A DNA stretch of 54,265 nt from a virus, in the IMG/VR virus record IMGVR_UViG_3300048586_000088, positions 1-54,265 of that record; one strand, 5' to 3'. This document shows positions 471 to 54,265 of the stretch, in pieces. The position numbers were made by a program, and so were the translations under genes. The notes beneath the pieces were generated by a model, which worked only from the letters and a program-made list of their open reading frames with translations, did no database searches and was not told the DNA's origin. The stretch's first letter is position 1; the number at the start of each line of letters is the position of its first letter.

Positions 471-3400
471 GGCTTCCTGCGGATTCTGGTGACTTGGTTG
501 CCCTTGCGGATCACTCGTGTGCCGTCAGGCAGGACCGTCTCGCCATCCCGGTTGCGCCCATCGCTACGGAGCCCGCGTACCTCGTCGGTGAGTTCGCCCA
601 CCTTGCGCTCCAAGGCCTCCGTCCTCATGTTGTTGGCAACGTAGGTCGTGGCGGCCTCCTGCTTCCGTGCGTCGATCACCTGTTCGATCTTGGCGTCATC
701 CAACTTGATGCCCAGGCCGTCCAGAAGCGGGGCAAGGTCCGGCGCCCGCAGCTTGCTCAGGTCATCCTCGTTGATCGCCTCGATCAGCCCGCGATACTTG
801 GCCGTTGATTTCCGGTTGGTGACGTACTCCCCGGCCTCTGCCTCGATCAGAGTTCCGCCTTGGTAGTGGCGCTTGCCTTCCACGGGTCCGCCGTGCTCGA
901 ATTGGTCGGGCTGTGCCGCTGCCTTGGCCGCCGCCCGGCTCTTGGCGAAGAACGCGTAGATGCTGGCCGCTTGCGCGAAGGCAGCAACAAGGCCAACGCC
1001 CAGCGGAAGCGTGCTCCATGAACTGATCAGGTTCGCCACCGCAACGCCGATGCTCGAAGCCTGTGAGGCAGAATCAATGAGCGCCTGCCTGCGGGCAAGG
1101 ACCTGACGTTCGGCAACTGCCTTTTTACGCTGCTCGGTGGCATCGCGTTCGGCCTGGTTCACGCGCTCGATCTCGGCCCGAACGCCGTCCGCGTTGTTGG
1201 CATACCCTTGGCGCTGGTTCTCCAGTTCCTGCTGCAACAGGCTGGTGAGTTCCGACCGCCTGCGTTCAGCATCCGCGATGATCTCGTCCGTGGCGGAGAT
1301 ACGCGCCTCCACCTCTGCCGCCTGCTGGTCGATCCCCGCTTGGATGATCTCCTGCGCGGAGGACAGCACGCTGCTCAATGCGTCCTTCACCCGCTGTTGG
1401 TCCTCCTCCTTGATGCCAAGAAGGTCCAGCAGGTTCAGCTTCACCGGGTTGTTCGCCAGTTCCTGCCGGGCCTTGTTCACTTCGGCGACGACCAGTTCCA
1501 AGTTGGCCCGCGTCAGTTCGGCCTCCTTGCCTGTCTGCCCTTCGATCAGCTTGAGTTGTGCCTGTGCGGAGGCCTCCTTGATCGCCAGTAGTTCCAGTTC
1601 CTTGCGCCGTGCAAAGACCTTCTCCGGCTCCCCGGCGTTCTGCAAGGCGTTGATCCGGGCCGTCTGGATCTGCTCGTCCAGTTGGATATTGGCGATGGCC
1701 GTCTCGCGTTCGAAGCGGGCAAGTTCAGCAGCGGCAAAGCGCGTGATCTCGTCCTCTTCGATCTTGGCCTTTCGCAGTTCCTCGATGCGTTCGTTCAACC
1801 CTTGCACGAACACAGCCCGCTCCCGTTCGCTGGCGTCCTGGATCAGTTCGATACGCTTGGCGGCCTGCTCCTGGTACAGCGCGTCCACGGCCTCCAAGTA
1901 CTGCTCCTCCTCCAGCAACCGCAGCGCGTTGATCTGCTCCTGCTGCTTGGCGGGTAGCGTGATGTCGCCTTGGGCAATGAGCGCATCGGCGCGGGCCTCC
2001 TGTTCCGCCGTGCTCAGTTCCTGCCATGCCTCCACGCCCAGCCGCTTCTGCAATTCGATCGCCGCCAGCTTGCGTTGGAAGCCGCGCTCCAGTTCGTCGA
2101 TCTCCTCCTGCGCTACGGTGCGCTCGATGCGTACCCGCTCGAAGGGATCATCCTGCCCGGCCGCTTCGCGCTGTGCGTCCAGCAGGCGCTTGGCAAGGTC
2201 GCGTTCGGCGGCAACGAGTTCTTCCACAAGGGCCTTCCTTGCCTTGACGTTAGATCGTGCGGCCTCCAGTGCCTCCTTGTCGTTCTGCTGAACCTCAAGA
2301 TCCGCACGGCGCTTGATCAGCGTCACCTCGTTGTACGTGCTGGCTCCCTCCCTGCGGATGGCTGCGATCTCCGTCTCCCTGCGGTCCGTCTCCTCCTGCG
2401 TCAACTTCCCAAGGTTCACCTCCCTGTTCAGGTCGCTCTCCAGTTGGTCGGCGAGTTCACGGCGGGCGCGGGCGCGGTCCTCAATGGCCGCGATCTCCAC
2501 GTCCCGCAGTTCTTCGATCAGCTTCTTTTGCCCTTGCACATCCCCATCCTTCAGCAATGTTCGACGGCGCTCAATGTCCAGCTTCTGAAGTTCAGCACCG
2601 AACTCGCGTGAGGCATCATCGATCTCCTGAAACTCCCGGATCGTTGCAAGGAAGTCGTCCCACTGCTTGTTCGCCTTCTCCGCATCATCCCCGCTGGCCA
2701 GCACCGCAACGCCCAAGGCGGCAAGGGCCGCAACGACAAGGAAGATCGGGTTCGTTACCAGCGAGATAGTGAACGCCTTAACCGCTGCCGTAGCAGCGGC
2801 AAATCCGGTTGTGCTGGCTGCTGCTGCCGTGCCTGCCGCTGCCGTAGCCGTTGCGCTGGCTGCCGTGGCCGCCGTCTGCGTTGCCGTGGCCGTGCTGGTG
2901 AGGCCCAAGGTCGCCCGCAAGGTCTTGAGGCTATCCCCGAACCCGCCGATGAACTGTTGCAGCCCTTGGGTGGTGAACAGCAGCACTTGGAAGCTATTGA
3001 GCACCTTGTTCAGACCCTCGTTGTCCCCGGCGATCAGCCCGACCGTGGATTGCACGGCGAACAGGCCGCTTTGCAGGCTGAAGGAAAGCTGGTTGAAGGC
3101 TTCGAGCTTCTTATCCGGGTTGAACGCCTCAAACCGGGCACCAAGGTCGCCGACCTCATCGGCCAGGGCAGCTACCCGCTTCTGTGCTTCGATGGCCTGT
3201 GCGCTGTCGATGCCGAACTCCGCAGCCAGCGCCCCGGCCTCCTGCTTGGCCGCGCGAAGCTGCCGTTGCAGGCTGGTGACGGATTCCGTCGCTGGCTCGA
3301 ACGCCTCCCCGAGGTCTTCCGCCTGAACGCCAGCCGCCGCCAGTTCAGCAACGGCCTCCGCGATCGACTGCGTGAACTCCTCGCTCTCGATACCCACGGC

Positions 3401-3889
3401 CCGCACCTCCTCTCGGATGGCTTCGTACTGGTCAACGCTCAGGCCCAAGGATGCGGCGATCTCCTTCTGCGACTTCACGGCCGCCTGTGAAAGCCCCGTC
3501 AGGGAGTTCTTCCCGCTGTTGCTTGCCGATGCCGCGCTCTTTGCGATCTGCTCAAGTTCGTCCGACGCCTTGCCCGTAGATGCCGCCACAGCCTTCACCT
3601 CCTTGTCCAGCGCCCCGGTCGCCGTGGCCGCCGATTCGATGTTCTTCACGAACCCGGACGTGTTGGAGGCGGCGACCGCCTTGCCCAGGCTGGTGACGAC
3701 CTTGGTGGTATCGGCAACGGCCTTGCTGAACTGCTGTGCGCTCTTCCCGCTGTCGGCGATCTCCTTCTGGATCTCCTCCTGTGCCTTGGCGTTGGCGTCA
3801 CGAAGCTGCCGGACGCTGGCCGCCATGGCCGCGAGGTCGTCCGCGAACGTTCCCTTTCCCTCGAACTGGAGTTCTACCTTCTGTGCCAT
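467..3889 (-). CDS. Tail tape measure protein
   Basis: This 1140-residue protein is the longest in the genome. The first 270 residues and residues 420-900 are alpha-helical and rich in Ala, Glu, Lys, Gln and Arg, as in a coiled coil. Two hydrophobic stretches interrupt them: around residues 370-400 (ITLVTNPIFLVVAALAAL-like) and around 965-1000. The C-terminus carries a basic region. Tape measure proteins span the tail lumen and set its length; by the usual rule of about 0.15 nm per residue this one predicts a tail of roughly 170 nm. It follows the frameshifted tail chaperone, the canonical siphovirus order, and its stop overlaps the next start (ATGA at 470-467). Confidence 0.93.
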   Translation of the reverse strand: MAQKVELQFEGKGTFADDLAAMAASVRQLRDANAKAQEEIQKEIADSGKSAQQFSKAVADTTKVVTSLGKAVAASNTSGFVKNIESAATATGALDKEVKAVAASTGKASDELEQIAKSAASASNSGKNSLTGLSQAAVKSQKEIAASLGLSVDQYEAIREEVRAVGIESEEFTQSIAEAVAELAAAGVQAEDLGEAFEPATESVTSLQRQLRAAKQEAGALAAEFGIDSAQAIEAQKRVAALADEVGDLGARFEAFNPDKKLEAFNQLSFSLQSGLFAVQSTVGLIAGDNEGLNKVLNSFQVLLFTTQGLQQFIGGFGDSLKTLRATLGLTSTATATQTAATAASATATAAAGTAAAASTTGFAAATAAVKAFTISLVTNPIFLVVAALAALGVAVLASGDDAEKANKQWDDFLATIREFQEIDDASREFGAELQKLDIERRRTLLKDGDVQGQKKLIEELRDVEIAAIEDRARARRELADQLESDLNREVNLGKLTQEETDRRETEIAAIRREGASTYNEVTLIKRRADLEVQQNDKEALEAARSNVKARKALVEELVAAERDLAKRLLDAQREAAGQDDPFERVRIERTVAQEEIDELERGFQRKLAAIELQKRLGVEAWQELSTAEQEARADALIAQGDITLPAKQQEQINALRLLEEEQYLEAVDALYQEQAAKRIELIQDASERERAVFVQGLNERIEELRKAKIEEDEITRFAAAELARFERETAIANIQLDEQIQTARINALQNAGEPEKVFARRKELELLAIKEASAQAQLKLIEGQTGKEAELTRANLELVVAEVNKARQELANNPVKLNLLDLLGIKEEDQQRVKDALSSVLSSAQEIIQAGIDQQAAEVEARISATDEIIADAERRRSELTSLLQQELENQRQGYANNADGVRAEIERVNQAERDATEQRKKAVAERQVLARRQALIDSASQASSIGVAVANLISSWSTLPLGVGLVAAFAQAASIYAFFAKSRAAAKAAAQPDQFEHGGPVEGKRHYQGGTLIEAEAGEYVTNRKSTAKYRGLIEAINEDDLSKLRAPDLAPLLDGLGIKLDDAKIEQVIDARKQEAATTYVANNMRTEALERKVGELTDEVRGLRSDGRNRDGETVLPDGTRVIRKGNQVTRIRRKP

Positions 3890-4612
3890 GGGCCGCGTCT
3901 TTGATGTGCTGCGTCTTGTCCGTTATGTACTGCTGGTGGCTGCGTAGGGCGTAGAAGAACTCGAACACGTCCATCCCCTGCCAGACCTTCGCTTCGAGCA
4001 TCTTCCCGTCCGATATGGCGGCGAGTAGCCCATGCTGCCGTGCCTTTATGCGGGCGATGCGTTGCTCGTAGTGCTCCGGCGCTTGGGGCTGCCCTGCTTG
4101 CTCTCCGTCTTCTCCCCTGCTGAAGTAGTCTGGGAAACGGCCTTGTAAGCCGCGAGAAAGCCGGGAATAGAAAGCAGGGCAAACGTGAAAAAATACCCCA
4201 TGTCAATCCCTTCGTTCCGCCAGTCGTCGATCTTGTCCTTGATCATCTGGTCGTCGATCGTGCGCAGGTCTTCCCCGTCGCGCACAAGGAACAACGCGCA
4301 CATCTTTAGAACCGCGTGGTGCTGCTGTTGGCCGAGCAAGGAGCAACCGATAGACAGGTCACGAAGCAGTACGGCGAGGTCCGCGAAGACCTTCTTTCCC
4401 GTGGCGACTTCATTGCACAGTTCATAAGCCCGGTTCACCTCATCATTGAACTGCTCGAAGGTGCGGCCCATGCCTATCTCCACCTGGAGCAGTTCATAGG
4501 CCTCGTATCGGTCGATGCTCAGGGACATGAGGCGGCGGTAACGCTGGCCGCTGGCAGTGAACTCCGTGGCATCGTGCGGGATCTTTTTCAGACCCACCCA
4601 AGCGTCTGTCAT
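3798..4612 (-). CDS. Tail assembly chaperone, -1 frameshift product (G-T like)
   Basis: At 4193-4187 the coding strand reads TTTTTTC with zero-frame phasing T TTT TTC, a canonical X XXY YYZ slippery heptamer. A -1 slip there enters a frame that is open for another 129 residues down to 3798, including GKMLEAKVWQGMDVFEFFYAL. The joined product would be about 271 residues. Lambda-like phages make G and GT chaperones in this way immediately before the tape measure gene. The extension overlaps the tape measure start (3889) by 92 nt, which is unusual, so its exact end is less certain than the shift. Confidence 0.75.
4046..4612 (-). CDS. Tail assembly chaperone, unshifted form (G-like)
   Basis: This 188-residue, mostly helical protein lies directly upstream of the tape measure. 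I chose ATG 4612 because it overlaps the previous stop as ATGA; the longer frame up to 4810 runs back through a better membrane-protein gene in another frame. Residues 135-155 are hydrophobic (MGYFFTFALLSIPGFLAAY) and contain the slippery codons 141-142. The final 45 residues read in this frame are low-complexity, as expected for a tail that is replaced after the shift. In other siphoviruses such proteins coat the tape measure during tail assembly. Confidence 0.75.
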   Translation of the reverse strand: MTDAWVGLKKIPHDATEFTASGQRYRRLMSLSIDRYEAYELLQVEIGMGRTFEQFNDEVNRAYELCNEVATGKKVFADLAVLLRDLSIGCSLLGQQQHHAVLKMCALFLVRDGEDLRTIDDQMIKDKIDDWRNEGIDMGYFFTFALLSIPGFLAAYKAVSQTTSAGEKTESKQGSPKRRSTTSNASPA

Positions 4613-4971
4613 ATTTGTCGCCTCATCCATTGATAGCCGTGTGAAATGGTTTGGGCGAAGATAATGGCCGATGCTGCGGCAAGGGCGTGAAATAGCAGGG
4701 AGTGCGCTTCGATGGCCCACGGGATGAAAGCCGAGCAGGACCAGAGGGCGAGTTGCCCGCTGAAGCACTTGGCGCAGCCTCCGAGGGGTCCCCCTATCCA
4801 TGAGCGCCAACCGCCTTCGTCATGCCATTCGTTGATCCATCGGAACCAACGGTTAGCCGGGTTGTCTTCACGCGCCAATACCACGGCATAGGCTACGCCG
4901 ATGATCGCGCAGGCAAGGCCGTAGGACAGTGCTCCGGCGATGGTCAGGGCTATGGATACAGCGGTGGTCAT
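4609..4971 (-). CDS. Small membrane protein in tail operon
   Basis: The protein has 120 residues from ATG 4971. The N-terminus MTTAVSIALTIAGALSYGLACAI forms a transmembrane segment, and a second hydrophobic region (about residues 75-110) follows a Cys-containing GGCAKCFSGQL motif. It lies between the DUF1566-type tail protein and the chaperone and overlaps the latter as ATGA. Similar small two-pass proteins next to tail genes are common in Bacteroidota phages, but I know of no assigned role. It could affect the host envelope, or be a virion component. Confidence 0.7.
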   Translation of the reverse strand: MTTAVSIALTIAGALSYGLACAIIGVAYAVVLAREDNPANRWFRWINEWHDEGGWRSWIGGPLGGCAKCFSGQLALWSCSAFIPWAIEAHSLLFHALAAASAIIFAQTISHGYQWMRRQI

Positions 4972-5002
4972 GGCGCCACGTAGTTCGATGCGTCCATATT
5001 CA

Positions 5003-7501
5003 TCATGGTAAGCGGCGCACGAAGATGCCGTAGATGAATGTGTTGGTGGTCTTGGCAATCTGTCCCACCTGACCGGCTGGGCTGCCAAGGAACTTGGCTC
5101 CAGTGGTAGTTCCTGGCCCAGTGCTAGATGTCCAAATGTTCGTCGTTCCGCCTGGCGCACTGAATGGATCGCCAGTAATGAACGTCCCGCTGTTGTCGTT
5201 CGTTATGCTGTCCAACACCCTGTCGTTAGGAAGATACCAACCCGTCTCTCCCAGCGTGGCGTTGATGGTCACACCAGCAGTGACCGCCGCGTTCCATGTG
5301 GCCGCTGTAAGGTATGTGCCAAGAACATAGTATTCCAGCCCTGTAAGGTGGTCCTGAATGAACCTATTGCCAGAAGACGCAGCAGCGGCCCCGGCTCGGT
5401 CTGTGAACCGTAGCGTGTTTCCCCATACGTTGTTGGCAGCAAGGGTGGTGAAGTTTGCCCCAAGTTCAGCGTAGTGTGTGGGGTATACTGGACGGGTGTA
5501 GTTGAAGAACCCATCGGCGTACATGGTGCCCTCGTCCCCCGCCTGATAAACCGTCTCCTGCCCGCTGTGCAGGATGCGCCCGAAGTTGTAGGCGATCCCG
5601 CTCCGGTAGTTCCGCACATCCAGCGCCACGGTCGCAGCCAGGCCAACGGTCGTCCCATCCGGTTTGGTAATAGTGCTGTCCGCGATGTCCTGCGTGGCCG
5701 TGCCGTTGCTCTTGACCGCTACGGTGTGCAGCGTGGTGGGTACGCTGTTGCGGATGGTGACGCTGCCGTTAGGGGCGAACAATGTGTCTGAAGTTCCGCT
5801 CGGGAAATTTACCGGGCTGCCGATGTTGATGTCGTCGGTATCGACCAGTTGAACAGTAGCATCTGGCGCTGTCTTAGTGGTAGACGTTCCCGGCGCGTAC
5901 ACGTCAGGGCTTCCGATGTCAGTTCCTCCACTGTCCTGTAGTTGCACCGTCACCGCCACCACCGCGTCCTGCGATGGCGTCAACGGCGCGATGATCTGAG
6001 CCAGCACGTCCGCATCGTCAACGGTCGGGATCAGTTCAGCCAGCACACCAGCACGTTTGCCGCTGGACGTGACGCACGTGGCAACTTCTGCGGATGTGCC
6101 TTCGGTGATCAGGGTGCATAGTGTCTTGGCCGTGGGAACTATCCAGAACCCGTCAATCTCTTCACCGACAGCCTCAAGTTCTTCGTTGGCCACCCTTACG
6201 TTCACCAGACCGCCACAAGGTTCAGCAACTTCATCGAACGGCTCATCATTCACGGTCACCGTAAGCGGGTCGCAAGGCACAGCGCAGAACGTACCAATGG
6301 TCGCCTGTGCAACGGTGCCATCAATAGCAGCACCGCCGACGAACTCAACCCATACACCAGACCATGGATTCGCCGGGGCGTTGTTGGTGATCCAGTCGGT
6401 CCCAACGAAGATGTCCCGGTTGATGTACTGCGACCCGTTCCACTCGATCGTGTGGTTCGGCGCTGCGCTGTACTTGGTGCGACCGTTCAGCGTGCCGTCC
6501 GGCGTGTAGGTGCCGTTCTTCTGCGTCTCCGAAGCGCCCGACACTACAACGGCGTCCAATAGGGTATCGCAGTCGATGTCCTCCGTATCGCCGGATGGGA
6601 TGCTCAGTAGCGGGATGCTGGCGAAGGTCACCTCCGCATCTTCACATGGCGGGCAAGGGTCGCACTCCGGCACCGTATGCACGCCCGTAGCAGGGTTCAG
6701 CGTCCCCACGTTCACGCCTCCCTGCTGCACAAGGATGGTCGGCGTGTCGCTCTCTGTGCCGTTTACCGTGGTGGGGTCGCATGGACCGCCCCCTTCACAG
6801 TCCAGGCACTCCGGTCCAAGCTGCGCAGCCGTCAGGCCCGTCACCGGGTCCGTCAGTTCCTCGCACGTGAAGTCCTTGGGATCCTTCCGCCTGCGCGTCA
6901 CCGGAGGATGCCAGCAGCTATCGTCGCCCGGCACAGGCTCCTCCTCGCAGCCAGGCTTCACGCGGTACTCCACCGACAGGTCGATCGCGAAGGCGTCGAA
7001 CGGCCACATCAGGTACTGCCGCGTGCTGTCCGGGTACGTGTACTGGCTGAAGATCTCCGGCCCGCGCTTGGGCATGCCTTCCACGGCCTGCCGGATGCCG
7101 ATCAGCGTCTCCGCGTTGTATGGTGCCCGGTCGTCCAGCAAGTTCAGGAACTCCTGTAGGATCTTGTCCCCCGCCGTCACGTCCCCGCTGAACTTCGCCG
7201 TGTTGATCCAGCAGACCAATCGCAGGTTGCTCCGGTAGCTGGTGCCCCGCGTGCGGCTCGTGGTGCGCGTGGTGCCTCCGTCCTCGAAGTACACCATGCA
7301 GGCGTACTGTTCGTCGGGCACCAGGTCGCGCTGCGTGCTGTCGTCGCATGCAAGGTCGTCCTGCACATCCACGGCCACGGGCACCTTTATCACAGCCCCT
7401 TCGCGCTCGTAACTGATCACCCGCACGAGGCCCGCGATCCGGTCCACGTAGGTGAACGCGGCAATCTTGTCCTTTAGGATGGAGGCGAGCCGGGGGTTCA
7501 T
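5003..7501 (-). CDS. Structural protein: neck/tail N-domain fused to DUF1566-like C-domain
   Basis: The protein has 832 residues and its ATG at 7501 overlaps the tail-completion gene stop. Residues 1-200 form a mixed domain that resembles a tail-terminator or minor tail protein (inference). A Cys-rich linker follows around residues 205-300, including CDPCPPCEDA. Two repeats of about 33 residues lie around 510-590 (QLQDSGGTDIGSP, QLVDTDDINIGSP). The last 150 residues have GWYLPNDRVLDSI, then WTSST and a final FVRRLP, the pattern of DUF1566/Lcl C-type-lectin-like domains. That suggests a surface-exposed binding module on a core tail protein, possibly receptor or glycan binding. Confidence 0.75.
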   Translation of the reverse strand: MNPRLASILKDKIAAFTYVDRIAGLVRVISYEREGAVIKVPVAVDVQDDLACDDSTQRDLVPDEQYACMVYFEDGGTTRTTSRTRGTSYRSNLRLVCWINTAKFSGDVTAGDKILQEFLNLLDDRAPYNAETLIGIRQAVEGMPKRGPEIFSQYTYPDSTRQYLMWPFDAFAIDLSVEYRVKPGCEEEPVPGDDSCWHPPVTRRRKDPKDFTCEELTDPVTGLTAAQLGPECLDCEGGGPCDPTTVNGTESDTPTILVQQGGVNVGTLNPATGVHTVPECDPCPPCEDAEVTFASIPLLSIPSGDTEDIDCDTLLDAVVVSGASETQKNGTYTPDGTLNGRTKYSAAPNHTIEWNGSQYINRDIFVGTDWITNNAPANPWSGVWVEFVGGAAIDGTVAQATIGTFCAVPCDPLTVTVNDEPFDEVAEPCGGLVNVRVANEELEAVGEEIDGFWIVPTAKTLCTLITEGTSAEVATCVTSSGKRAGVLAELIPTVDDADVLAQIIAPLTPSQDAVVAVTVQLQDSGGTDIGSPDVYAPGTSTTKTAPDATVQLVDTDDINIGSPVNFPSGTSDTLFAPNGSVTIRNSVPTTLHTVAVKSNGTATQDIADSTITKPDGTTVGLAATVALDVRNYRSGIAYNFGRILHSGQETVYQAGDEGTMYADGFFNYTRPVYPTHYAELGANFTTLAANNVWGNTLRFTDRAGAAAASSGNRFIQDHLTGLEYYVLGTYLTAATWNAAVTAGVTINATLGETGWYLPNDRVLDSITNDNSGTFITGDPFSAPGGTTNIWTSSTGPGTTTGAKFLGSPAGQVGQIAKTTNTFIYGIFVRRLP

Positions 7502-11572: not shown

Positions 11573-11800
11573 TTACTTCGTTTTGGTGGGTTGCTCTTTC
11601 GTCGCCGCTTCGACCTGGGCCTTCACGCCCTGGCGGATCTCGGCGGGGATCATGGTGCGGCCGCTGCCCACCACGCGCTCCTCAAGTACCTCGAAGCGGC
11701 TCATCATGCCCTTGGCGCGGATGGCTTGCAGCCCTACCTCGTCCACGACATAGCGGTTGCCCGTCTTGATGTTCTGGATGGTGATAGCCTTGGTGCTCAT
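11573..11800 (-). CDS. Small head-region protein
   Basis: The protein has 75 residues and its ATG overlaps the preceding stop as ATGA. Its opening (TIQNIKTGNRYVVDEVG) resembles the start of the next upstream protein (LIQNIRNGSEKRVSARTW). The two may therefore share a small N-terminal fold by duplication. The C-terminus is Lys/Thr-rich. The function is unknown, and its location suggests a head-assembly or head-tail component. Confidence 0.65.
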   Translation of the reverse strand: MSTKAITIQNIKTGNRYVVDEVGLQAIRAKGMMSRFEVLEERVVGSGRTMIPAEIRQGVKAQVEAATKEQPTKTK

Positions 11801-12354
11801 GCTGCGAGGGCTTTGGCCTTCATCTTCCAGCCGGGGACCTGTGCCTTTTTGGGGCTGAGGCTGGCCTTGTCGAGGGCTTCGTTGATGGCGTTGATGGACG
11901 CGGCGGCCAGTTCCTTGTAGGTCGTGATGCCGATGGCGTTGAGCAGTTCAGCGACCTTCGGGCCGATGCCTTCCACCTTGGTGAGGTCTTGGCCGGGGGC
12001 TGTCGGGGGCGCTGGGGCCGATTCAGCCTCCACGATGGCCTCAGCTACCAGGGAAGCCTCGACAACGGCAGCAGGGGCCGTTTCCGCCTCCACCTTCAAC
12101 CCGCTCACCAGCGCGGCGTCCTGCACAGCCTTCGCCGCGTGCGCCTTGTTCTCCGCTTCGGTGATCTCGGGAGGAACGAACGTGGGTTGATCGCCCTTCA
12201 CCACAACGCCGGGAGGTTTGGGGGCCGTGCGCGATACCAGGCGGAAGCCCTTGCGGACATCGCCCTGCTCAACGCTGTTTCTCATCAGGTCCCACGTTCT
12301 GGCGCTCACGCGCTTCTCGGAACCGTTGCGGATGTTTTGGATCAGTACGAACAT
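11797..12354 (-). CDS. Helix-hairpin-helix domain protein in head operon
   Basis: The protein has 185 residues. It has an N-terminal 45-residue basic domain related to its downstream neighbour, then an Ala/Pro/Glu-rich linker (residues 70-125). Next comes LTKVEGIGPKVAELLNAIG, the GxG hairpin of HhH (HHH_5-like) non-specific DNA-binding domains, and the C-terminal tail is basic. A DNA-binding protein among capsid genes could contact packaged or portal-proximal DNA. That role is inference. Confidence 0.75.
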   Translation of the reverse strand: MFVLIQNIRNGSEKRVSARTWDLMRNSVEQGDVRKGFRLVSRTAPKPPGVVVKGDQPTFVPPEITEAENKAHAAKAVQDAALVSGLKVEAETAPAAVVEASLVAEAIVEAESAPAPPTAPGQDLTKVEGIGPKVAELLNAIGITTYKELAAASINAINEALDKASLSPKKAQVPGWKMKAKALAA

Positions 12355-12372
12355 GCTCAGGTGTTGATGGGG

Positions 12373-12403
12373 CGAATGTAGTCACGAAACATTCACCTGA
12401 CAA
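12373..12403 (-). promoter_or_regulatory. Promoter for HhH-scaffold-capsid operon
   Basis: On the minus strand TTG (12403-12401), 20 bp and TACATTCG (12380-12373) lie just ahead of the start at 12354. This fits TTG-N17-23-TANNTTTG with one mismatch in the -7 box. Confidence 0.6.
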
Positions 12404-12960
12404 CATGGCGGCGTTCGGACCGTTCGCGTTCGCGTAGAACTTCAGACCTGAACTGCCTACCTGAGAAAGTCTATGACTGCTTAGACCAGAAGATCTTTCG
12501 AGGATGACCCCCCTTTCCCCCCAGAGTAGTTCTGAGTTGGGAAAGATGGCCTCCCCGGTGGTCTGTGCTGCTTGAGCCAGTTAGTCCCCCTGAGTGTGCC
12601 CCGGACGCCTACGCCCTACGTTTGCACGCACCCCGTGTTGATTCACGATGTCCGGTCTTTCCCTTCGAGGGCAGCCGCTTCGTGGAGGTGGTGGTGTGCT
12701 AGTATGGGTTGATCGGTAGTGCCCTCTGCCTTGCAAGGGCTTTTAACCGGGAGCTACCCGTCATGCGCAAGAACTCCGAACCTACGCATTCAATCGCCGC
12801 GACTGGGACACCGCTTATTTAGCCCCTATCACACACCACCATGTCCAAGAACGGCGAAGACCGGAGAACAGATTGCGCCTGTTTCCGGTCTTCAGTGTGG
12901 TTGGCAGCGTGCGGGCTACGCAACCGACGATCTTGAACCGAACACCGCGCAATGATGTTC
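12404..12960 (-). ncRNA. Candidate large structured non-coding RNA
   Basis: This gene-free stretch of about 550 bp lies between two head genes. It has a perfect consensus promoter (TTG-N19-TATGTTTG, 12994-12965) just upstream and no convincing reading frame. Read on the minus strand it forms successive hairpins: CCGAACA/TGTTCGG (12962-12938); GGTTG/CAACC with inner GCGT/ACGC; a stem of about 15 bp at 12893-12856; CCTTGCAAGG; CTTTCCC/GGGAAAG with nested CAGA/TCTG; GAAAG/CTTTC with nested GTCTA/TAGAC; and TTCAG/CTGAA. It could be a long structured leader of the next operon instead of a free RNA. Confidence 0.6.
12856..12893. repeat. Strong inverted repeat within the candidate RNA
   Basis: GAAGACCGGAGAACAG and CTGTTTCCGGTCTTC flank a 7-nt loop. 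The stem is about 15 bp with a single bulged base. No T-run follows on either side, so it looks like a structural element and not a terminator. Confidence 0.85.
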
Positions 12961-12964
12961 GGCA

Positions 12965-12994
12965 CAAACATACGAACGAATCCGATCCGCGCAA
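12965..12994 (-). promoter_or_regulatory. Promoter of the structured region
   Basis: On the minus strand TTG (12994-12992), 19 bp and TATGTTTG (12972-12965) make a full Bacteroidota consensus promoter. The predicted start near 12960 coincides with the 5' arm of the first hairpin. It lies directly after the terminator of the MuF-like gene. Confidence 0.75.
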
Positions 12995-13008
12995 CAACAA
13001 AACAGAAA

Positions 13009-13026
13009 GCCGCCCTCACGAGCGGC
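13009..13026 (-). terminator. Terminator after MuF-like gene
   Basis: On the minus strand GCCGC, an 8-nt loop and GCGGC are followed by TTTCTGTTTTG. It lies 19 bp beyond the stop at 13046 and separates the portal transcript from the structured RNA region. Confidence 0.75.
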
Positions 13027-13045
13027 CTCCTGTCCTTGTCGGGAA

Positions 13046-13963
13046 CTATGGCTTGGGAAGGTCCGGGCGCCTTCGGACAGCCTCTTCATAAGGAATATAA
13101 AGGAGCCGATGACGGCAAAACCATCTTCCCCGATCCTCCAATGGGTTGTAGTCCGTGATCACGCCGCTGTCCGCCTCAGCCTTCGTCCGGGGCAGCAGCG
13201 GGTCCCGCTCCCACGTCTTCGCCTCCTCCGTTGTGAAGACCTTGTTGTTCCGCTTCCGGCAGAAGCCGCGCGATGTTTCGATCAGGCCGCCCGAATAGAT
13301 GAAGTACTTGAGATCCAGCCGCGCCGCGAACTCGTTGTTCGTGATGCTATCCGCCACTTGGTACGCATCCAGCACGAACCCGCCGATGTTCCGCTCCAGG
13401 ATGCCAGCCGTCCGCGCCGTGCCTTGGATCTGCACGCGCAGTTGCCGCTCCAGCTTCTTCATCGGTATGCCAGCGGCCACAGCCTTCGCCACCAGCTTCT
13501 TGATCTCGTCGCGGGCGATCTCCGTCCGCTGCACTTGGCTCAGGTAGCCCTTGGGCCGCACCTTGCCCTTTGCGTCCAGCCCAAGGCGCTGTTGCAGCCG
13601 CTTTATCACGGCCTTCTTGATCGCGGCATACTCCCCGCGCTTCGGCTCGGCGATGCTCTGGTAGTACCGCGCGTTCATGGACAGAAGCTGCCCCGTGCCC
13701 TTGGCCGTCGCCCGTGCCACCTTGGCCAGCCCTACCTGCTCGATCTTGTCGAATATGGTATCAATGGCCTTGCCCGTGCTCACGAAGCCTTTGCGCGATG
13801 TTATGCGGCCCCCGTCCTCCTGCAACGAACGCTGCACCTCGGCCACCAGCCGCTTGAACAGCAGCTTCTCGATACCGGCAAGGTCCCGGAAGCGGGCCTT
13901 CTGCTCGGCGGATAGCAGCCTGTCGCTGGCCTGCGATAGCTTCAGGAGTTCGGCGTTGGTCAT
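13046..13963 (-). CDS. MuF-like minor head protein
   Basis: The protein has 305 residues and starts by ATGA overlap with the portal gene. It has a long basic helical N-terminal half and a C-terminal SGGLIETSRGFCRKRNNKVF, then RGRWFCRHRLLYIP. The ETSR-F-C and final RHRL signature is that of phage Mu F / SPP1 gp7-type head morphogenesis proteins, which bind the portal and enter the procapsid in low copy. The place directly after portal is the family's usual one. Confidence 0.85.
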   Translation of the reverse strand: MTNAELLKLSQASDRLLSAEQKARFRDLAGIEKLLFKRLVAEVQRSLQEDGGRITSRKGFVSTGKAIDTIFDKIEQVGLAKVARATAKGTGQLLSMNARYYQSIAEPKRGEYAAIKKAVIKRLQQRLGLDAKGKVRPKGYLSQVQRTEIARDEIKKLVAKAVAAGIPMKKLERQLRVQIQGTARTAGILERNIGGFVLDAYQVADSITNNEFAARLDLKYFIYSGGLIETSRGFCRKRNNKVFTTEEAKTWERDPLLPRTKAEADSGVITDYNPLEDRGRWFCRHRLLYIPYEEAVRRRPDLPKP

Positions 13964-16044: not shown

Positions 16045-16596
16045 CTACTCCCCCAGCATCTTAGCGGCGATCGGGTCGGCGCGGAGGGTTTCCCATGCCT
16101 TCCGCTGCTCCGGGTAGATGTCCGGGTCGCATGGGCACTTGTTGATGTAGTCCATCGCCAGCCTCAGGGCCTGCTCTGCCGGGATGGCGCGTTCAACTAA
16201 GGCGGCGGCGTAGCCCTCCTGCCTTGCCCCGACAACCGAATAAGCTAATGCAGCATCGGTGGTGTGCAGGTGCAGGTGATTTTCAAACAATGGCATCGGA
16301 TACCGCTCTGCCGCCTGATCCTCGGCGCTGGTCGTGGGTCGTTCTGGTGTGTTCATGGTCAATTTGTAGTATTCGTTCGCGGCCTTCATCATGCCATCGC
16401 ATCGCGGGTCGTGGTATGCGTCATCGTCATCCACCTCGCAGTACTTGTAGACCTCGGCAACGAGCGCCATGCCCGCTTTCTGCTCTGCTTCACTCATCCC
16501 CTCCAGCCTCATCCCGAACCGTAGCACGGCATCTTGGTCCTCGGGGCCAAGTTCGAGGCATTCTACGGCGGCTTCTATGATCTCTTGAATGTTCAT
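16045..16596 (-). CDS. Hypothetical accessory protein
   Basis: The protein has 183 residues. It is acidic and helical at the N-terminus (LELGPEDQDAVLRF), with a Cys/His-containing middle (DDDDAYHDPRCDGM) and a C-terminal INKCPCDPDIYPEQRKAW. I recognise no family. It is the last small gene before the portal and has an untranslated AT-rich leader upstream (16597-16657). Confidence 0.7.
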   Translation of the reverse strand: MNIQEIIEAAVECLELGPEDQDAVLRFGMRLEGMSEAEQKAGMALVAEVYKYCEVDDDDAYHDPRCDGMMKAANEYYKLTMNTPERPTTSAEDQAAERYPMPLFENHLHLHTTDAALAYSVVGARQEGYAAALVERAIPAEQALRLAMDYINKCPCDPDIYPEQRKAWETLRADPIAAKMLGE

Positions 16597-27009: not shown

Positions 27010-27039
27010 CAAATATAGGCGCAAGCGTTCATCGTGCAA
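27010..27039 (-). promoter_or_regulatory. Promoter of the small RNA
   Basis: The minus strand carries TTG (27039-27037), 19 bp and TATATTTG (27017-27010), identical in spacing and -7 box to the early promoters at 18.9 and 42.8 kb. The TTG lies within the last codons of the upstream helicase gene. Confidence 0.85.
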
Positions 27040-28708
27040 GTGCTGATTTACGCGGCATCGGTCTAGCGTCCATCGGTACGCCAGTCAGTATCCGCCCCTG
27101 GCTGTGAATGTGCCAGCCGCCTTCGTTGCTCAACTCCAAGTCCTCCACCTTCCCGAACTGCCGGAGGTTGCCGCCCATGTCGATGATCATGGTGTGGTCC
27201 TTGTCCGGGTGCGGACGAATGCCCCTGCCCACGATCTGATACCACAGCGCAAGGCTCATCGTCGGGCGGGCCATCACTACGGCCTCCAGTTCAGGATAGT
27301 CGAATCCGGTGGTCAAGATCCCGACGTTGCACACCACCTTGATCCATCCGTCGCGGAAGCCGCGAAGCACGCGCTCCCGTTCCTTGCTCGGCGTCTCGGC
27401 AGTAACGATGGCCGCGCCGGGGATCATGGCCGCCACGAACCGCGCCTCCTCCGTGAAGCGCGTGAACACCAGCACATTCTTTCGCCCGATCTCCAGCAGT
27501 CGCTTCACGACCGACACGACCTTGCCGTTGAAGTTCGCCAGCTTGTACTGCTCCCGGACGCTCCGGTCGGTGTAGTCCGCGCCAGTGCTGTTGCGCTGCA
27601 AGGCGTTCCGGTTGATCACGTTCACCTCGTGGTAGACCAGCTTCGCCAGGTAGCCAGCCTCGAACAGTTCGCGGTTCTGGACGTGGTACACGATCTCGTC
27701 GAACACGCGCGGCCGGGTCCGGGTCAGCATCTTCAACTCCGAGTACGTCTCGTAGGTCACCGGGTTGCTGCCCTGTGAAAGGCGATAAGGCGTGGCTGTA
27801 AGGCCAAGGACCGGGACGTTCATGTGCTCCAATACCTCCGCATACATCGGCAGCTTCTCCCCGACCACTCGGCTGTGCTTGTCGCGGATCAGGTTGGCCT
27901 TGGCCGAAACGAGGTGGCATTCGTCCACGAGCACGTACTTGAACCGCTCCAGCAGGTGCTTCTTCCGCACTACGCTCCCGATCGTGGCGAAGGTCACGTC
28001 CCGAAGGTTCTTTTCACCAGCCGATGCGCTGTAGACCCCGCAGCCGTACCCGTAGCTGCGGTATTTAGCCGCGTTCTGCTCCAGGATCTCCTTGGACGGC
28101 TGGAACACGAGCGTAGGTGCGCCGAGTGCTTTGACTATGCCCGCGATCACCAAGCTCTTGCCGCTGTTGTGGTGAACGGTGAAGTCTTCCGTCAGGTACA
28201 GGTGATCTCCGTCGAGCGTGAATCCGTAGAATTCATCCTCCTCCATTTCTTCAACCATGAAGCCGTAGTACTTGGTTCCATTCTTCGTGTTCATCAGGAA
28301 GGCTCGACCAGCCCAGTGTGCAGCGTCTTTGATCCATTCGCGCACCTTCATATGGCACTCGCCTCCGTAATCGCCCCACAGGGCCAGCACGTGGTCGCCG
28401 TTTACAATGAACGGAGGTGGGCATTCTTCTTCGTTGGGATTGCGGGGGGTGATCCGATACATGGTATCGCGCCCTACGCAAAGGTTGAGCACGGTTCGCG
28501 GCTCAATTCCCCAAGGGCTGCGCAGCATGTCGCCGTCCTCTATGTCCTCAACCGCCTTGGTGGTCATGTCTGCCATCAGTATGCGCGTGCCCTTGGCGTG
28601 GCATCCGGTCGGAAGCATCACCAGCCCGTTCTTCCCGCGCGTAGTGCGCAGGAATTCCACGGACCTGTCAACGGCCTCCTGCTGGTATGGGCGTAGCGTG
28701 AACGACAT
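27029..28708 (-). CDS. DEAD/DEAH-box helicase interrupted by a mini-intein
   Basis: The precursor has 559 residues. After splicing, the 413-residue protein would read LRPYQQEAVDRSVEFL, then a Walker A loop rebuilt from LPTG and SGKS, then YVLVDECHLV (DECH box), LGLTATPYRL and VGRGIRPHPDK (motif VI). It is a superfamily 2 helicase of the ResIII type common in phage replication and recombination modules. The intein sits inside the ATP-binding loop, so the enzyme should be inactive until splicing. Confidence 0.92.
   Translation of the reverse strand: MSFTLRPYQQEAVDRSVEFLRTTRGKNGLVMLPTGCHAKGTRILMADMTTKAVEDIEDGDMLRSPWGIEPRTVLNLCVGRDTMYRITPRNPNEEECPPPFIVNGDHVLALWGDYGGECHMKVREWIKDAAHWAGRAFLMNTKNGTKYYGFMVEEMEEDEFYGFTLDGDHLYLTEDFTVHHNSGKSLVIAGIVKALGAPTLVFQPSKEILEQNAAKYRSYGYGCGVYSASAGEKNLRDVTFATIGSVVRKKHLLERFKYVLVDECHLVSAKANLIRDKHSRVVGEKLPMYAEVLEHMNVPVLGLTATPYRLSQGSNPVTYETYSELKMLTRTRPRVFDEIVYHVQNRELFEAGYLAKLVYHEVNVINRNALQRNSTGADYTDRSVREQYKLANFNGKVVSVVKRLLEIGRKNVLVFTRFTEEARFVAAMIPGAAIVTAETPSKERERVLRGFRDGWIKVVCNVGILTTGFDYPELEAVVMARPTMSLALWYQIVGRGIRPHPDKDHTMIIDMGGNLRQFGKVEDLELSNEGGWHIHSQGRILTGVPMDARPMPRKSALAR
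28166..28603 (-). mobile_element. Mini-intein (146 residues) in Walker A loop
   Basis: Residues 36-181 of the helicase precursor. It starts with Cys and block A (CHAKGTRILMADM), has block B-like GDHVLAL and ends with block F (HLYLTEDFTV) and block G (HHN), followed by the +1 Ser of SGKS. It is too short for a homing endonuclease, so it is a splicing-only mini-intein. The catalytic Cys1, terminal Asn and +1 Ser are all present, so it should be active. Confidence 0.93.
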
Positions 28709-30071: not shown

Positions 30072-30329
30072 TCAGAGATTAAGGTCTGCCTTGAGTTCGT
30101 CCAGTTCGGCGCACGGAGCGTTCCCGGTGGCCAGTTCCAACATCCGCTGGTGGATGTCCATCAGCTTGTCGATGGCCGTGCCGACCTCGGTCAGCGCCTT
30201 CCAATACTGCACCTCGGCCACCAGCCGCAGCGCCTCGCTGTCCGGGTACGCCAGTCGGATGGTTTCCTCGATGCCCTGGTGGAGGTAGTTCAGGCCGTCC
30301 ACCGTCTTCTGTGTGATCGCTTGCTTCAT
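30072..30329 (-). CDS. Hypothetical protein with GAGCAACCC leader
   Basis: The protein has 85 residues from ATG 30329, helical, acidic at the C-terminus (ELDELKADLNL). The ten bases before the ATG are TGAGCAACCC, complementary to the small RNA. An in-frame ATG at 30425 overlaps the upstream gene's end and would add 32 residues; I prefer the inner start because of the leader motif. Confidence 0.65.
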   Translation of the reverse strand: MKQAITQKTVDGLNYLHQGIEETIRLAYPDSEALRLVAEVQYWKALTEVGTAIDKLMDIHQRMLELATGNAPCAELDELKADLNL

Positions 30330-30414
30330 GGGTTGCTCAATTTTGAAGTCGGTCCAGCCCGCGCCCTTGCAACTTAAATGACTATGGGGGCGCGGGTCTG
30401 GCCGATGGGTTGGT

Positions 30415-30615
30415 TCAGTCTTCATCGCTATCACTCCAGATCCACGGAGAATACAGGCTTGTCTTGTCCTGCATATTTGCAAGGAATACAGATTGTCTCT
30501 GGGTGGACGGGTATAGCGGCATGTACTTCCGAACAAGGGCCTTGAACTCTTCTGAAAAACGCTGAACCACTTGGTGGTCTTCATCCGTAAAGTAATCTTG
30601 TTGCTCGCCGCTCAT
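30415..30615 (-). CDS. Hypothetical acidic protein
   Basis: The protein has 66 residues. It starts MSGEQQDYFTDEDHQVV and ends in an acidic tail (SDSDED). It is helical in the middle. The function is unknown. It follows the first gene of the 30.8-kb operon. Confidence 0.65.
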   Translation of the reverse strand: MSGEQQDYFTDEDHQVVQRFSEEFKALVRKYMPLYPSTQRQSVFLANMQDKTSLYSPWIWSDSDED

Positions 30616-38584: not shown

Positions 38585-39955
38585 TTACTTGTTGAGGAAG
38601 GTTGGAAGTTGGATCGGCTTGTTGAACTCCTTGGTCGAAGCGTGGTACTCCGAGTTGATGGAGGCATTGAGTTTGCTGAACAGTTCGTCGGCCTTTGCCG
38701 CCTTGGCGATAAGGCTGTCCATGACGCGCTTTTGTCCGTCGGAATACACAAGGTCCACCACTACCTCACGGGTCTGTCCAAAGCGCCAAAAGCGGCGGAT
38801 GGATTGGTAGAACTGTTCATAGCTGAAGGTGGGAAAGTAGACGGTGTGGGCGCAGTGCTGCCAGTTCAGGCCGAAGGCGGTGATCTTGGGCTTGGTGATC
38901 AGTCGCTTGATGTCACCGTTGGCAAAGCCCAGCAGCAACTCTTCCTTTTTGTCCAGGTTCATGGACCCGGATATCTGGTGTGCGTCCTTGTCCATCTCAG
39001 CCAGTAGGTCGCCCTCTTTGTTGAGGTTGCACCAATAGACGGATACATCGTGGCCAAGGGTCAACTCCACAGCGGCCTCACATCGCTTGGCCACGGTCTG
39101 TGATTGCTCAACCCTGACCTCAGTCAACCGCCGTGCAATCTGATTGAACAACTGTATCTGCCCGTCCACCACAAGGTTCTCCTCGTTCTTTACGCTGTGG
39201 TGCCGAAGGTCCATGATGGGCAGAACGTGCCTGCTGTCATCAAAGCCAAGGTCGGACGGCTTCCGCATCGACACGCTCCACGAACTGACCCACTGAAAGA
39301 ACGCCTCTTTAGCGTGGCCTTTCAGGATCCATTCCGTCCCGATGTTCTGCGGGCTGATGGTGTCCTCATTGTTGGTGAAGAACTTGGTGAGCATGTCGGT
39401 ATAGCCCATGTACCCAAGCGCCTCGGAACTTGTCCCTAGCTCGATAAAGTCGTTCGGGCTTGGCGTGGCCGTGAACAGGTACCTGTATTGCACTTGCTTC
39501 AGGAAGCTGGTAACCTGTGCTTTGATAGCCCCGTCAAAGTTCTTAAGGATGCTGCTTTCATCCAAAATGACGCACCCGAAGTCGTTGGGGTTGAACTTGT
39601 CCAAGCGTTCGTAATTGCATACCACTATCTTGGTATTGAACTTGCCATCCTTGGAATAGCTGATGTCATCGATGCCGAACTTTTCAGCCTCTTTGATGAA
39701 CTGAAAGGCCACGGCCAACGGGGTCAGGATCAACACGGGCTTGTTGGTGTGCTCGATGTAGTTCCTGGCCACCGTCAACTCGATGACCGTCTTACCTAGT
39801 CCAGTGTCAAGGAACACGGCACAGCGACCCTTGCGGATGGCATATCGTGCAACGTGTTCCTGATAGTCGAACAATCCGCTCGGCATCCACTTGGGTTCTA
39901 TCCCGTGGTCCGATGCCCTGTGCCGCTTGGATGCGACAAACTTATCGTAATCCAT
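38585..39955 (-). CDS. SNF2/superfamily 2 helicase
   Basis: The protein has 456 residues from ATG 39955. FDYQEHVARYAI, then FLDTGLGKTVIEL (Walker A), GCVILDESSILKNF (DExx box), YLFTATPSPNDF and the C-terminal YQSIRRFWRFGQT (motif VI) identify a phage-type SNF2-like ATPase. These are often next to a DNA methyltransferase, as here, and may aid modification or replication. The longer frame to 40018 runs back through a hairpin leader. Confidence 0.9.
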   Translation of the reverse strand: MDYDKFVASKRHRASDHGIEPKWMPSGLFDYQEHVARYAIRKGRCAVFLDTGLGKTVIELTVARNYIEHTNKPVLILTPLAVAFQFIKEAEKFGIDDISYSKDGKFNTKIVVCNYERLDKFNPNDFGCVILDESSILKNFDGAIKAQVTSFLKQVQYRYLFTATPSPNDFIELGTSSEALGYMGYTDMLTKFFTNNEDTISPQNIGTEWILKGHAKEAFFQWVSSWSVSMRKPSDLGFDDSRHVLPIMDLRHHSVKNEENLVVDGQIQLFNQIARRLTEVRVEQSQTVAKRCEAAVELTLGHDVSVYWCNLNKEGDLLAEMDKDAHQISGSMNLDKKEELLLGFANGDIKRLITKPKITAFGLNWQHCAHTVYFPTFSYEQFYQSIRRFWRFGQTREVVVDLVYSDGQKRVMDSLIAKAAKADELFSKLNASINSEYHASTKEFNKPIQLPTFLNK

Positions 39956-39968
39956 GTGTAAAAGGTTT

Positions 39969-40026
39969 GCGCCCCCATGTTCACCGTTCACAGTGTCGAG
40001 CCTGTGTCGGGTGCCCATGGGGGCGC
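39969..40026 (-). terminator. Inverted repeat upstream of helicase: attenuator or terminator
   Basis: GCGCCCCCATG (39969-39979) and CATGGGGGCGC (40016-40026) are an exact 11-bp inverted repeat, with a nested CACAG/CTGTG. On the minus strand the second arm is followed by AAACCTTTT just before the helicase ATG. This could partly terminate transcription from the recombination genes. Confidence 0.6.
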
Positions 40027-40073
40027 TGTATTTCGTTGGTGATGATCATGTTCGCTGCTCGACCAGCGGAAAC

Positions 40074-40970
40074 CTACTCGGCTTCGGCTTCAAACGTAAC
40101 GCCTTCCGCGTTCTCTTCCAAGGCCCGGTGGACAATTTGTTGCTCCTCCGGGTTGCACGCAGCCAGGTAGCCTTGGATCGTGTCCAGCTTGGCGGCAACA
40201 ACATCAGCGAAGGCATGCACGCGGCGGCTCATGCTCTCGATCACCGCCTCATCCCGGTACACCCGGATGATCACCAAGCGCATCGCCAGCGGGAAGCGGT
40301 CGTCGTAGCTCACGAAGTCGCACCAGTTGCGCCCGCTGATCCATAGCTGGCCATGGACCTGCTCGAAGTAGTCCTCGGGCAGCGTGCGCGTCAGGTAGGT
40401 CTGAAGATGCCGCTTGATCTCCGGGCACTTGACCTCCAGGATGCCGGGGCCTTCCTCGTCATCCTCCACGAAGCCGTCCGGCGTTGCGCCTATGGTGGTG
40501 CCTTCGAGGATCAGGAGGCGGCCTTCGGATACGTCCGTGAACTTGTGGGTCGCGTACTGGTCCAGCGCGTCCTGCTCCAGGTCGATGCCGCGATCCATGG
40601 CGGCGCTTCGGCCTCCTACGCGGTCCAGTCCTGTAACGGCCTGCGCCATGATCTCGTACATGTAGGACACGGCCGTCTCGGACAGTGGGAAGGCTCCCTG
40701 CAAGGCTGCGGCCTCAGCCACCATCTGCGGCAAGCCGTCCGCCTCGACCTTCATCCCGGCACGCGGCCCGGACTTCAGCACCTTGAAGCGGTCGGCCTCC
40801 GGGATCAGATGGATGTGCGCGTTGACGAACTCTCGCGGGATCGTGCGCGGATCCTTCACCACATCGCCGAACCGGGATGCCGTGACCATTGCGCGGCGGG
40901 CGGTCTTCCAAGTGTCCGTCCCGTACTTCGGACCATCAACAACGCCGGGGGGTAGGTAGATGGTGCTCAT
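40074..40970 (-). CDS. YqaJ/lambda-type exonuclease
   Basis: The protein has 298 residues. IGATPDGFV and GILEVKCPE, then YFEQVHGQLWISGRNWCDFVSYD are the D...E-x-K ... Q-x-x-x-Q catalytic pattern of YqaJ/lambda exonucleases (PD-(D/E)XK fold). With RecT, 250 bp upstream, it forms a two-component annealing system for phage DNA recombination, as in lambda Exo-Beta. Confidence 0.92.
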   Translation of the reverse strand: MSTIYLPPGVVDGPKYGTDTWKTARRAMVTASRFGDVVKDPRTIPREFVNAHIHLIPEADRFKVLKSGPRAGMKVEADGLPQMVAEAAALQGAFPLSETAVSYMYEIMAQAVTGLDRVGGRSAAMDRGIDLEQDALDQYATHKFTDVSEGRLLILEGTTIGATPDGFVEDDEEGPGILEVKCPEIKRHLQTYLTRTLPEDYFEQVHGQLWISGRNWCDFVSYDDRFPLAMRLVIIRVYRDEAVIESMSRRVHAFADVVAAKLDTIQGYLAACNPEEQQIVHRALEENAEGVTFEAEAE

Positions 40971-52770: not shown

Positions 52771-54265
52771 GTGTATTGCAGGACAAACGTACTGCGGTCG
52801 GTGCTCAGGTCGTGCTCAATGGTCTGGACCGATGCCTGTATTACGCCGATACGGTCACCCAATCGTGTGCGCAGGTACTTGGTGGCATCGTACCACGGCA
52901 TCGCGCAGCACAGGGGCACGGACACGCCCCCCTGCTCAATGTTCGGCCGGTAGCCGTCGAAGGTCACGTCCTGCCCGTTCATGTTCCCGGTCGGCAGGTA
53001 CCTGTTCCACGTCCAGAAGTCCCGCTGAAGGTTTGCCAATGACGCAGGGGCGTTGGTGGTCAGGTTGCCGGTGATGGCGCCGTAGTCGATGATCGCGTTG
53101 TATACCGCACCGTCGAAGGTGGTGGCCATGATCACGAAGCCGCGCTTCTCCAGCCCGTCCGGATCGGTGATCAGGTATGGGAGGTCCGTGCTGATATTCC
53201 CCACCGTGTACTCTTCCACGCCGTCCCCATCCGTCACGATCACGCACGGGCCGCTGTACACGATGTCCCGGCCCACGAAGTCACGGCCCTGCGAATCTGC
53301 GAAGCTGGCCCGCTCGATGCGCGGGATGGATTCGGACAGGTGCTTGTAACGCAGTGGCTCGATAACGTCCTGCATCGTGCGGATGTCCAGCCCCTCCACC
53401 TCGATCCAGTACTTGTAGTGCTCGATGCGGATGTATCCATCCTCGTCGATGCGCCAGAATACTTGGTACATGGTGCCCAAGGCTTCGAGGAAGTCGGACA
53501 GGCTCATTTCGCCGATCGTAGCCGGGTTGGTGGCGGTCGGGTCCAGCACGTCCGTCTTCTGGAAGATCACCAGGTTGTTCGTCTGGCTCTGATCCCCTGT
53601 CACGTAGTTGATGCCTGCGGCGTATCCCGGCGCATCGCCCACGGGCAGGATCTCAAAGAAGTCCGATCGGATGCCTTCCAGCGGGCATCCGGTCTGCTCC
53701 ACGAGGTAGTCGCCTACCTCGGACACAAGGCGCCCTCCAGGTAGTTCGGTGCTGTCGCCGTCCGACAGGCATACGTAGAACGGCACGATGCCGGGAGGGT
53801 CCGCGATGCTGGTGAAGTCGTAGGACCCGATCTGTAGCCACTGGCAGGTGTCGGGCGGCGGCTCTGGGTATCCGTCCATGCCGAAGAACGCGTCCGGGTC
53901 GCCGAAGGTGTAGGAGATCAACGGCGTCCGGTAGTAACGCGCCGTGCCGTTCGTTGCGCAGTTGTCCGTTTCCAGCGTCCACCCGGCGCCTGGAGGCGGC
54001 GATGGTGCCGAACCGATGCACTCTGTAACGGAGAACTCCCTCCACAGCACCCCGAGCAATGGACCGCCCCCGATGGGCGTCCACGTGTGCACCAGCGTGT
54101 ATCCGGTATCATCCCCAACGCCTCCACAGATGGGAACACCCATGATCACCGGGCAGATCAGGAACTCCAAGGACGGCAGGATCAGCGCCGCCGATTCCAC
54201 CGGAGCCACCTGAAGCACGTTCCGCTTCACCTTCCACGCATCGAAAAGGCAGGTGTAGTCGTCCT
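52764..54265 (-). CDS. Tail-tip/baseplate protein, C-terminal part
   Basis: This is the continuation of the gene that starts at 470 and crosses the contig junction; within the window it runs from the right edge to a stop at 52764. Bases 54139-54265 duplicate 1-127. The C-terminus is rich in beta structure with PDGLEKRGFVIMATTFDG, ending VQTIEHDLSTDRSTFVLQYT. It contains a middle domain (YLVEQTGCPLEGIRSDFFEI, SDFLEALGTMYQVFWRI) that recalls tail-hub (Tal/gp27-like) proteins. The function is inferred from order. Confidence 0.8.
   Translation of the reverse strand, partial: DDYTCLFDAWKVKRNVLQVAPVESAALILPSLEFLICPVIMGVPICGGVGDDTGYTLVHTWTPIGGGPLLGVLWREFSVTECIGSAPSPPPGAGWTLETDNCATNGTARYYRTPLISYTFGDPDAFFGMDGYPEPPPDTCQWLQIGSYDFTSIADPPGIVPFYVCLSDGDSTELPGGRLVSEVGDYLVEQTGCPLEGIRSDFFEILPVGDAPGYAAGINYVTGDQSQTNNLVIFQKTDVLDPTATNPATIGEMSLSDFLEALGTMYQVFWRIDEDGYIRIEHYKYWIEVEGLDIRTMQDVIEPLRYKHLSESIPRIERASFADSQGRDFVGRDIVYSGPCVIVTDGDGVEEYTVGNISTDLPYLITDPDGLEKRGFVIMATTFDGAVYNAIIDYGAITGNLTTNAPASLANLQRDFWTWNRYLPTGNMNGQDVTFDGYRPNIEQGGVSVPLCCAMPWYDATKYLRTRLGDRIGVIQASVQTIEHDLSTDRSTFVLQYTY
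54139..54265. repeat. 127-bp terminal direct repeat (right copy)
   Basis: Identical to bases 1-127; see the left copy. It should be removed before analysing the genome as a 54,138-bp circle. Confidence 0.95.

Follow-up and report, generated by a model that had tools for sequence, protein, structure and literature searches.

A non-coding stretch between two head-gene transcription units of the phage genome analyzed here carries its own promoter motif, has more predicted secondary structure than shuffled sequences with its two ends paired, and is absent from relatives at the same site. From the modeled fold and its surroundings, we put at about even the chance that this element (minus strand, 12994–12405) is a stand-alone gene for a structured RNA, expressed from its own promoter. 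The window, that is, the whole stretch of 54,265 nucleotides analyzed, carries a direct terminal repeat of 128 bp (1–128 and 54138–54265), and the record therefore probably represents a complete genome that closes circularly and is about 54,137 bp (~54.1 kb) long. It encodes a tail tape-measure protein, terminase, portal, RecT, DnaB, and helicases. One helicase gene (27029–28708, minus strand) shows a Hom_end-associated Hint (intein-type) profile at residues 36–110 and helicase domains from residue 182, and a relative (G002) is alignable only from residue 182 onward.

The genome has 5 promoter motifs of the type TTG-N19-TAnnTTYG, versus 0.24 expected, all on the minus (coding) strand; the sigma-ABfr consensus of Bacteroidota has TAnnTTTG at −7 and TTTG near −33 (PMC7366714; PMC9723704). 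Because of these genome-wide motifs of the sigma-ABfr type, together with a terminase resembling, among others, those of Bacteroides, Flavobacterium, and Cellulophaga phages, the host is probably a member of the Bacteroidota. Relatives of the capsid protein were sought in cellular genomes and none were found. No tRNA genes were detected in the window, and ARAGORN finds no tmRNA either.

The minus-strand order around the element is portal, p305 (Mu-F-like), hairpin terminator, promoter, element, promoter, p185, p75, scaffold-like, and capsid-like, where the scaffold and capsid names reflect gene order and conservation, those proteins having no Pfam or PHROG match. The sequence-only reading had placed a gene-free stretch among the head genes, and this was borne out for positions 12355–13045, bounded by the p305 gene (13046–13963) and the p185 gene (11797–12354). 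In terms of the phage's own codon usage, the element scored −0.5 to −0.9 bits per codon in all six frames, as compared with +0.2 to +0.5 in the majority of short genes examined, and the open reading frames of the gene-free stretch gave no convincing match to Pfam. A protein-coding gene was rejected, as coding-like codon usage was found in none of the six frames.

The upstream operon (portal and p305) is closed by a hairpin terminator at 13041–12996 (minus strand; 21-bp stem in the minimum free energy (MFE) fold); the strong terminator formerly assigned to 13009–13026 is thus present as a hairpin, but is longer than described. At this site an equivalent, though not identical, hairpin (GGGCGC..GCGCCC-TTTTT or similar) is present in most relatives. 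The promoter said to open the stretch was identified as a Bacteroidota sigma-A motif, TTG-N19-TATGTTTG, at 12994–12965 on the minus strand (TTGCGCGGATCGGATTCGTTCGTATGTTTG), which is one of the genome's 5 matches. It conforms to the consensus of Bacteroidota rather than to an E. coli sigma-70 site, and an E. coli-type promoter scan missed it because the host type differs. With the box assumed at −12 to −5 (PMC9723704), the RNA is predicted to start (+1) at 12960. Likewise, the next-operon promoter proposed at 12403–12373 (minus strand), preceding p185 and the scaffold-like and capsid genes, was confirmed as TTG-N20-TACATTCG; the box and its flanking bases are conserved in five relatives carrying the same head genes (L002–L005 and L017), and the TGACTACATTCGCCCC part is (nearly) conserved. 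Two minus-strand promoter motifs (18915–18870 and 42828–42780) have in common TTGTAATTG(C/T)GAAAG...CTATATTTG and a downstream CCGTGACTGAAAC; GTGAC also occurs in the capsid promoter, where relatives have a GTGACGCCGCGTCAC palindrome. These sequences possibly mark a site for a phage regulator.

The predicted RNA of about 555 nt (12960–12405, minus strand; 3′ end placed from the closing helix) was more stable than expected by chance. Thus, the MFE of 12960–12404 was −231.8 kcal/mol, against −198.1 ± 7.1 kcal/mol for dinucleotide shuffles (z −4.7; 0/200), and the plus strand gave a weaker z of −2.6. The excess was greater in the 5′ half of the minus strand (z −4.1) than in the 3′ half, which was weakly above chance (z −1.5). 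Segments of 280 nt taken across the whole genome gave z values of 0 ± ~1.15 (about 1.2), placing the element in the tail of the distribution. Two further minus-strand stretches are strongly structured: 39901–40180, with GCGCCCCCATG...CATGGGGGCGC directly ahead of a helicase gene start at 40018, and 30241–30520, which contains CCCGCGCCC...GGGCGCGGG; both are likely to contain terminators or attenuators.

About 60 nt at either end of the predicted RNA (5′ strands within 12951–12899, 3′ strands within 12461–12406) pair with each other through three helices of 13, 13, and 9 bp, namely P1 (12951–12938 with 12418–12406), P2 (12930–12916 with 12437–12424), and P3 (12908–12899 with 12461–12452), with pair probabilities of 0.94, 0.78, and 0.96, respectively. 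The energy of this end-to-end duplex, −53.2 kcal/mol, was matched in 4 of 2000 shuffles of the whole RNA, 0 of 2000 shuffles of the arms, and 17 of 2098 genome segments; taken by itself, the closing helix, with 11 uninterrupted bp, stands out less, 26 of 1000 shuffles having one at least as long. Since the closing helix stops 2 nt short of the next promoter, the cassette fits the gap from the terminator to the capsid promoter.

Inside the paired ends, the predicted fold contains three well-defined arms. Both conspicuous stems of the sequence-only reading recur in it with mean pair probabilities of at least 0.97: the stem of about 15 bp as a 16-bp hairpin, GAAGACCGGAAACAG / CTGTTCTCCGGTCTTC (12893–12856; mean 0.97), and the CTTTCCC/CAGA...TCTG/GGGAAAG double stem within a three-segment hairpin of 10 + 8 + 6 bp (12557–12499; 0.98). 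The remaining arm is a two-part stem (11 + 11 bp, 12855–12831 with 12699–12674; 0.93–0.99) closing a multi-branch domain (12855–12674) with four small hairpins, where pair probabilities are 0.61–0.89. A central domain (about 12671–12562) is weakly defined, most pair probabilities being 0.5–0.6. The fold z, the promoter motif, and the terminator-to-promoter anatomy support the earlier proposal that the stretch encodes a structured RNA expressed from a promoter of its own.

The same transcript might instead serve the p185–scaffold–capsid operon as an extended, structured 5′ leader, read through from 12960 and tuning late head-gene expression in cis. The element lies on the same strand directly upstream of this operon, and no intrinsic terminator was found after the RNA 3′ end, that is, between the RNA and p185, by a simple scan whose sensitivity is limited, as it also failed to flag the strong upstream hairpin at 13041–12996; read-through into p185 is therefore possible. 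However, the operon retains a conserved promoter of its own immediately ahead of p185, the closing helix stops before that promoter and not near the p185 start, and relatives have the same operon with no such leader. We therefore regard the leader explanation as unlikely. A stand-alone RNA gene would instead presumably be transcribed as a unit with a 3′ end near 12405, its product acting in trans and not on the downstream genes.

The relatives compared are IMG/VR phages whose capsid, portal, terminase, and p305 proteins are 78–84%, 62–63%, 62–64%, and 57–58% identical, respectively, to those of the window, and all five with the same head genes lack the element at the syntenic site. In four of them (L003, L004, L005, and L017) the slot holds about 110 bp, comprising in most a hairpin terminator and then the conserved TACATTCG-containing promoter. 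In the fifth (L002), a 1.9-kb protein-coding cargo of several open reading frames precedes the same terminator and promoter, and opens with its own TTG-N21-TATCTTTG promoter motif (TTGCATATTTGAAACGGACGGCGCTATCTTTG). Because the slot is so short in four relatives and filled with such a cargo in the fifth, it appears to be a site for independently promoted, moron-like cargo. Within the L002 cargo (3156–5100 of that record), part of one open reading frame resembles the start of the window gene 16045–16596 (65% over 40 amino acids).

No copy turned up elsewhere in the relatives' records, most of which are fragments, or in the most complete relative (48 kb), whether by BLAST or with a covariance model for the branched domain. 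A 22-nt BLAST match in G002 lies inside a gene and was dismissed as chance. Since relatives with the same capsid, portal, and Mu-F-like proteins do without it, the element is, on sequence comparison, accessory and dispensable in the lineage, and head assembly in the group does not require it; its accessory nature speaks against an essential part in packaging or assembly. The packaging- or assembly-linked role suggested earlier, whether as an RNA like phi29 pRNA or as a packaging site, accordingly fared badly: its one support is position, next to the portal, Mu-F-like, scaffold-like, and capsid genes, whereas relatives whose capsid, portal, and Mu-F-like proteins are 57–80% identical (62–80% for portal, terminase, and capsid) have no element, and the 48-kb relative has no copy elsewhere. 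We consider such a role very improbable; that the element adjoins head genes is better accounted for by a cargo slot separating two transcription units.

Searches for homologues gave nothing. With the Rfam models (gathering score, and E up to 5) no family matched the element, RNase P and tmRNA included; weak matches to ryfA and SNORD103 were rejected as far below the gathering scores, the ryfA match covering the terminator hairpin only. BLASTN against annotated phages and plasmids gave no similar DNA beyond chance matches, exact 15–17-mers in IMG/VR gave none or chance matches (every one inspected had no flanking similarity), and a 20-mer scan of bacterial genomes gave no match. A covariance model built for the branched domain from the one sequence likewise detected no homologue in relatives or other viral loci. 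As the oligomer and similarity scans detect near relatives only, this absence of homologues is weak evidence.

A remnant of mobile DNA, or a non-autonomous form of it (an intron fragment, transposon end, or decayed gene), in which hairpins are incidental, would account for a single copy with no function at all, and absence from relatives means gain in this lineage or loss in others. Nevertheless, Rfam gave no match to group I or group II introns, HEARO, or other ribozymes; the genome has no second copy of the element, and the stretch no protein-like remnant; and a correctly placed promoter motif with paired ends is unexpected in debris. We give this origin a low probability, similar to that of the leader.

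Collectively, the stand-alone RNA gene remains the favored reading. The cassette would be an accessory RNA gene inserted between two late transcription units, a moron with an RNA product. A host-type RNA polymerase would start at about 12960, and the ~555-nt transcript would close on itself through P1–P3, with three stable arms around a branched core and a 3′ end near 12405 made by processing or some form of termination. Its most likely role would be that of a scaffold RNA that folds by itself and acts in trans while the phage infects, with or without host proteins. It may provisionally be called a large structured phage non-coding RNA of a new, so far single-member class, provisional because the claim rests on one sequence. 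More tentatively, and with less than even confidence, it may represent a Bacteroidota-phage class of large ornate RNAs forming a closed multi-domain particle (perhaps a multimer), with RNA as the sole cargo of a late-gene slot that in a relative holds protein genes. Few large non-coding RNAs of the ROOL and GOLLD kind are known from phages, and what they do is unknown. The class would be broadened by an independent case from a different host phylum that sits in an exchangeable cargo slot, and related phages with and without the element offer a clean presence/absence comparison for function.

ROOL is a homo-octameric cage, and both ROOL and GOLLD form multimers. Like ROOL, the element would be a large (~550–600 nt), structured, phage-encoded RNA; unlike ROOL, which typically, although not strictly, lies near tRNA islands (PMC12286853), it occurs in a genome with no tRNA genes and with Bacteroidota-type promoters, and has no match to the Rfam model (gathering score; E up to 5). 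It shares with GOLLD a large multi-domain architecture in phages and an unknown function, but is shorter (about 555 nt, where many GOLLD RNAs exceed 800 nt; PMC12286853), has no tRNA island, and does not match the Rfam model, which includes the conserved 3′ region. Judged by these model searches, the element is a member of neither family, although it may work like them. As for phi29 prohead RNA (pRNA), which is much shorter and essential for packaging, the likeness is that of an RNA encoded by a tailed phage and, here, adjoining head genes, whereas the element appears dispensable in its lineage. Phage morons offer a further parallel: the product here appears to be RNA and a limited-sensitivity scan found no dedicated terminator, but the element is absent at the syntenic site of relatives, has its own promoter motif, appears accessory, and lies between two transcription units in the slot where a relative carries protein cargo.
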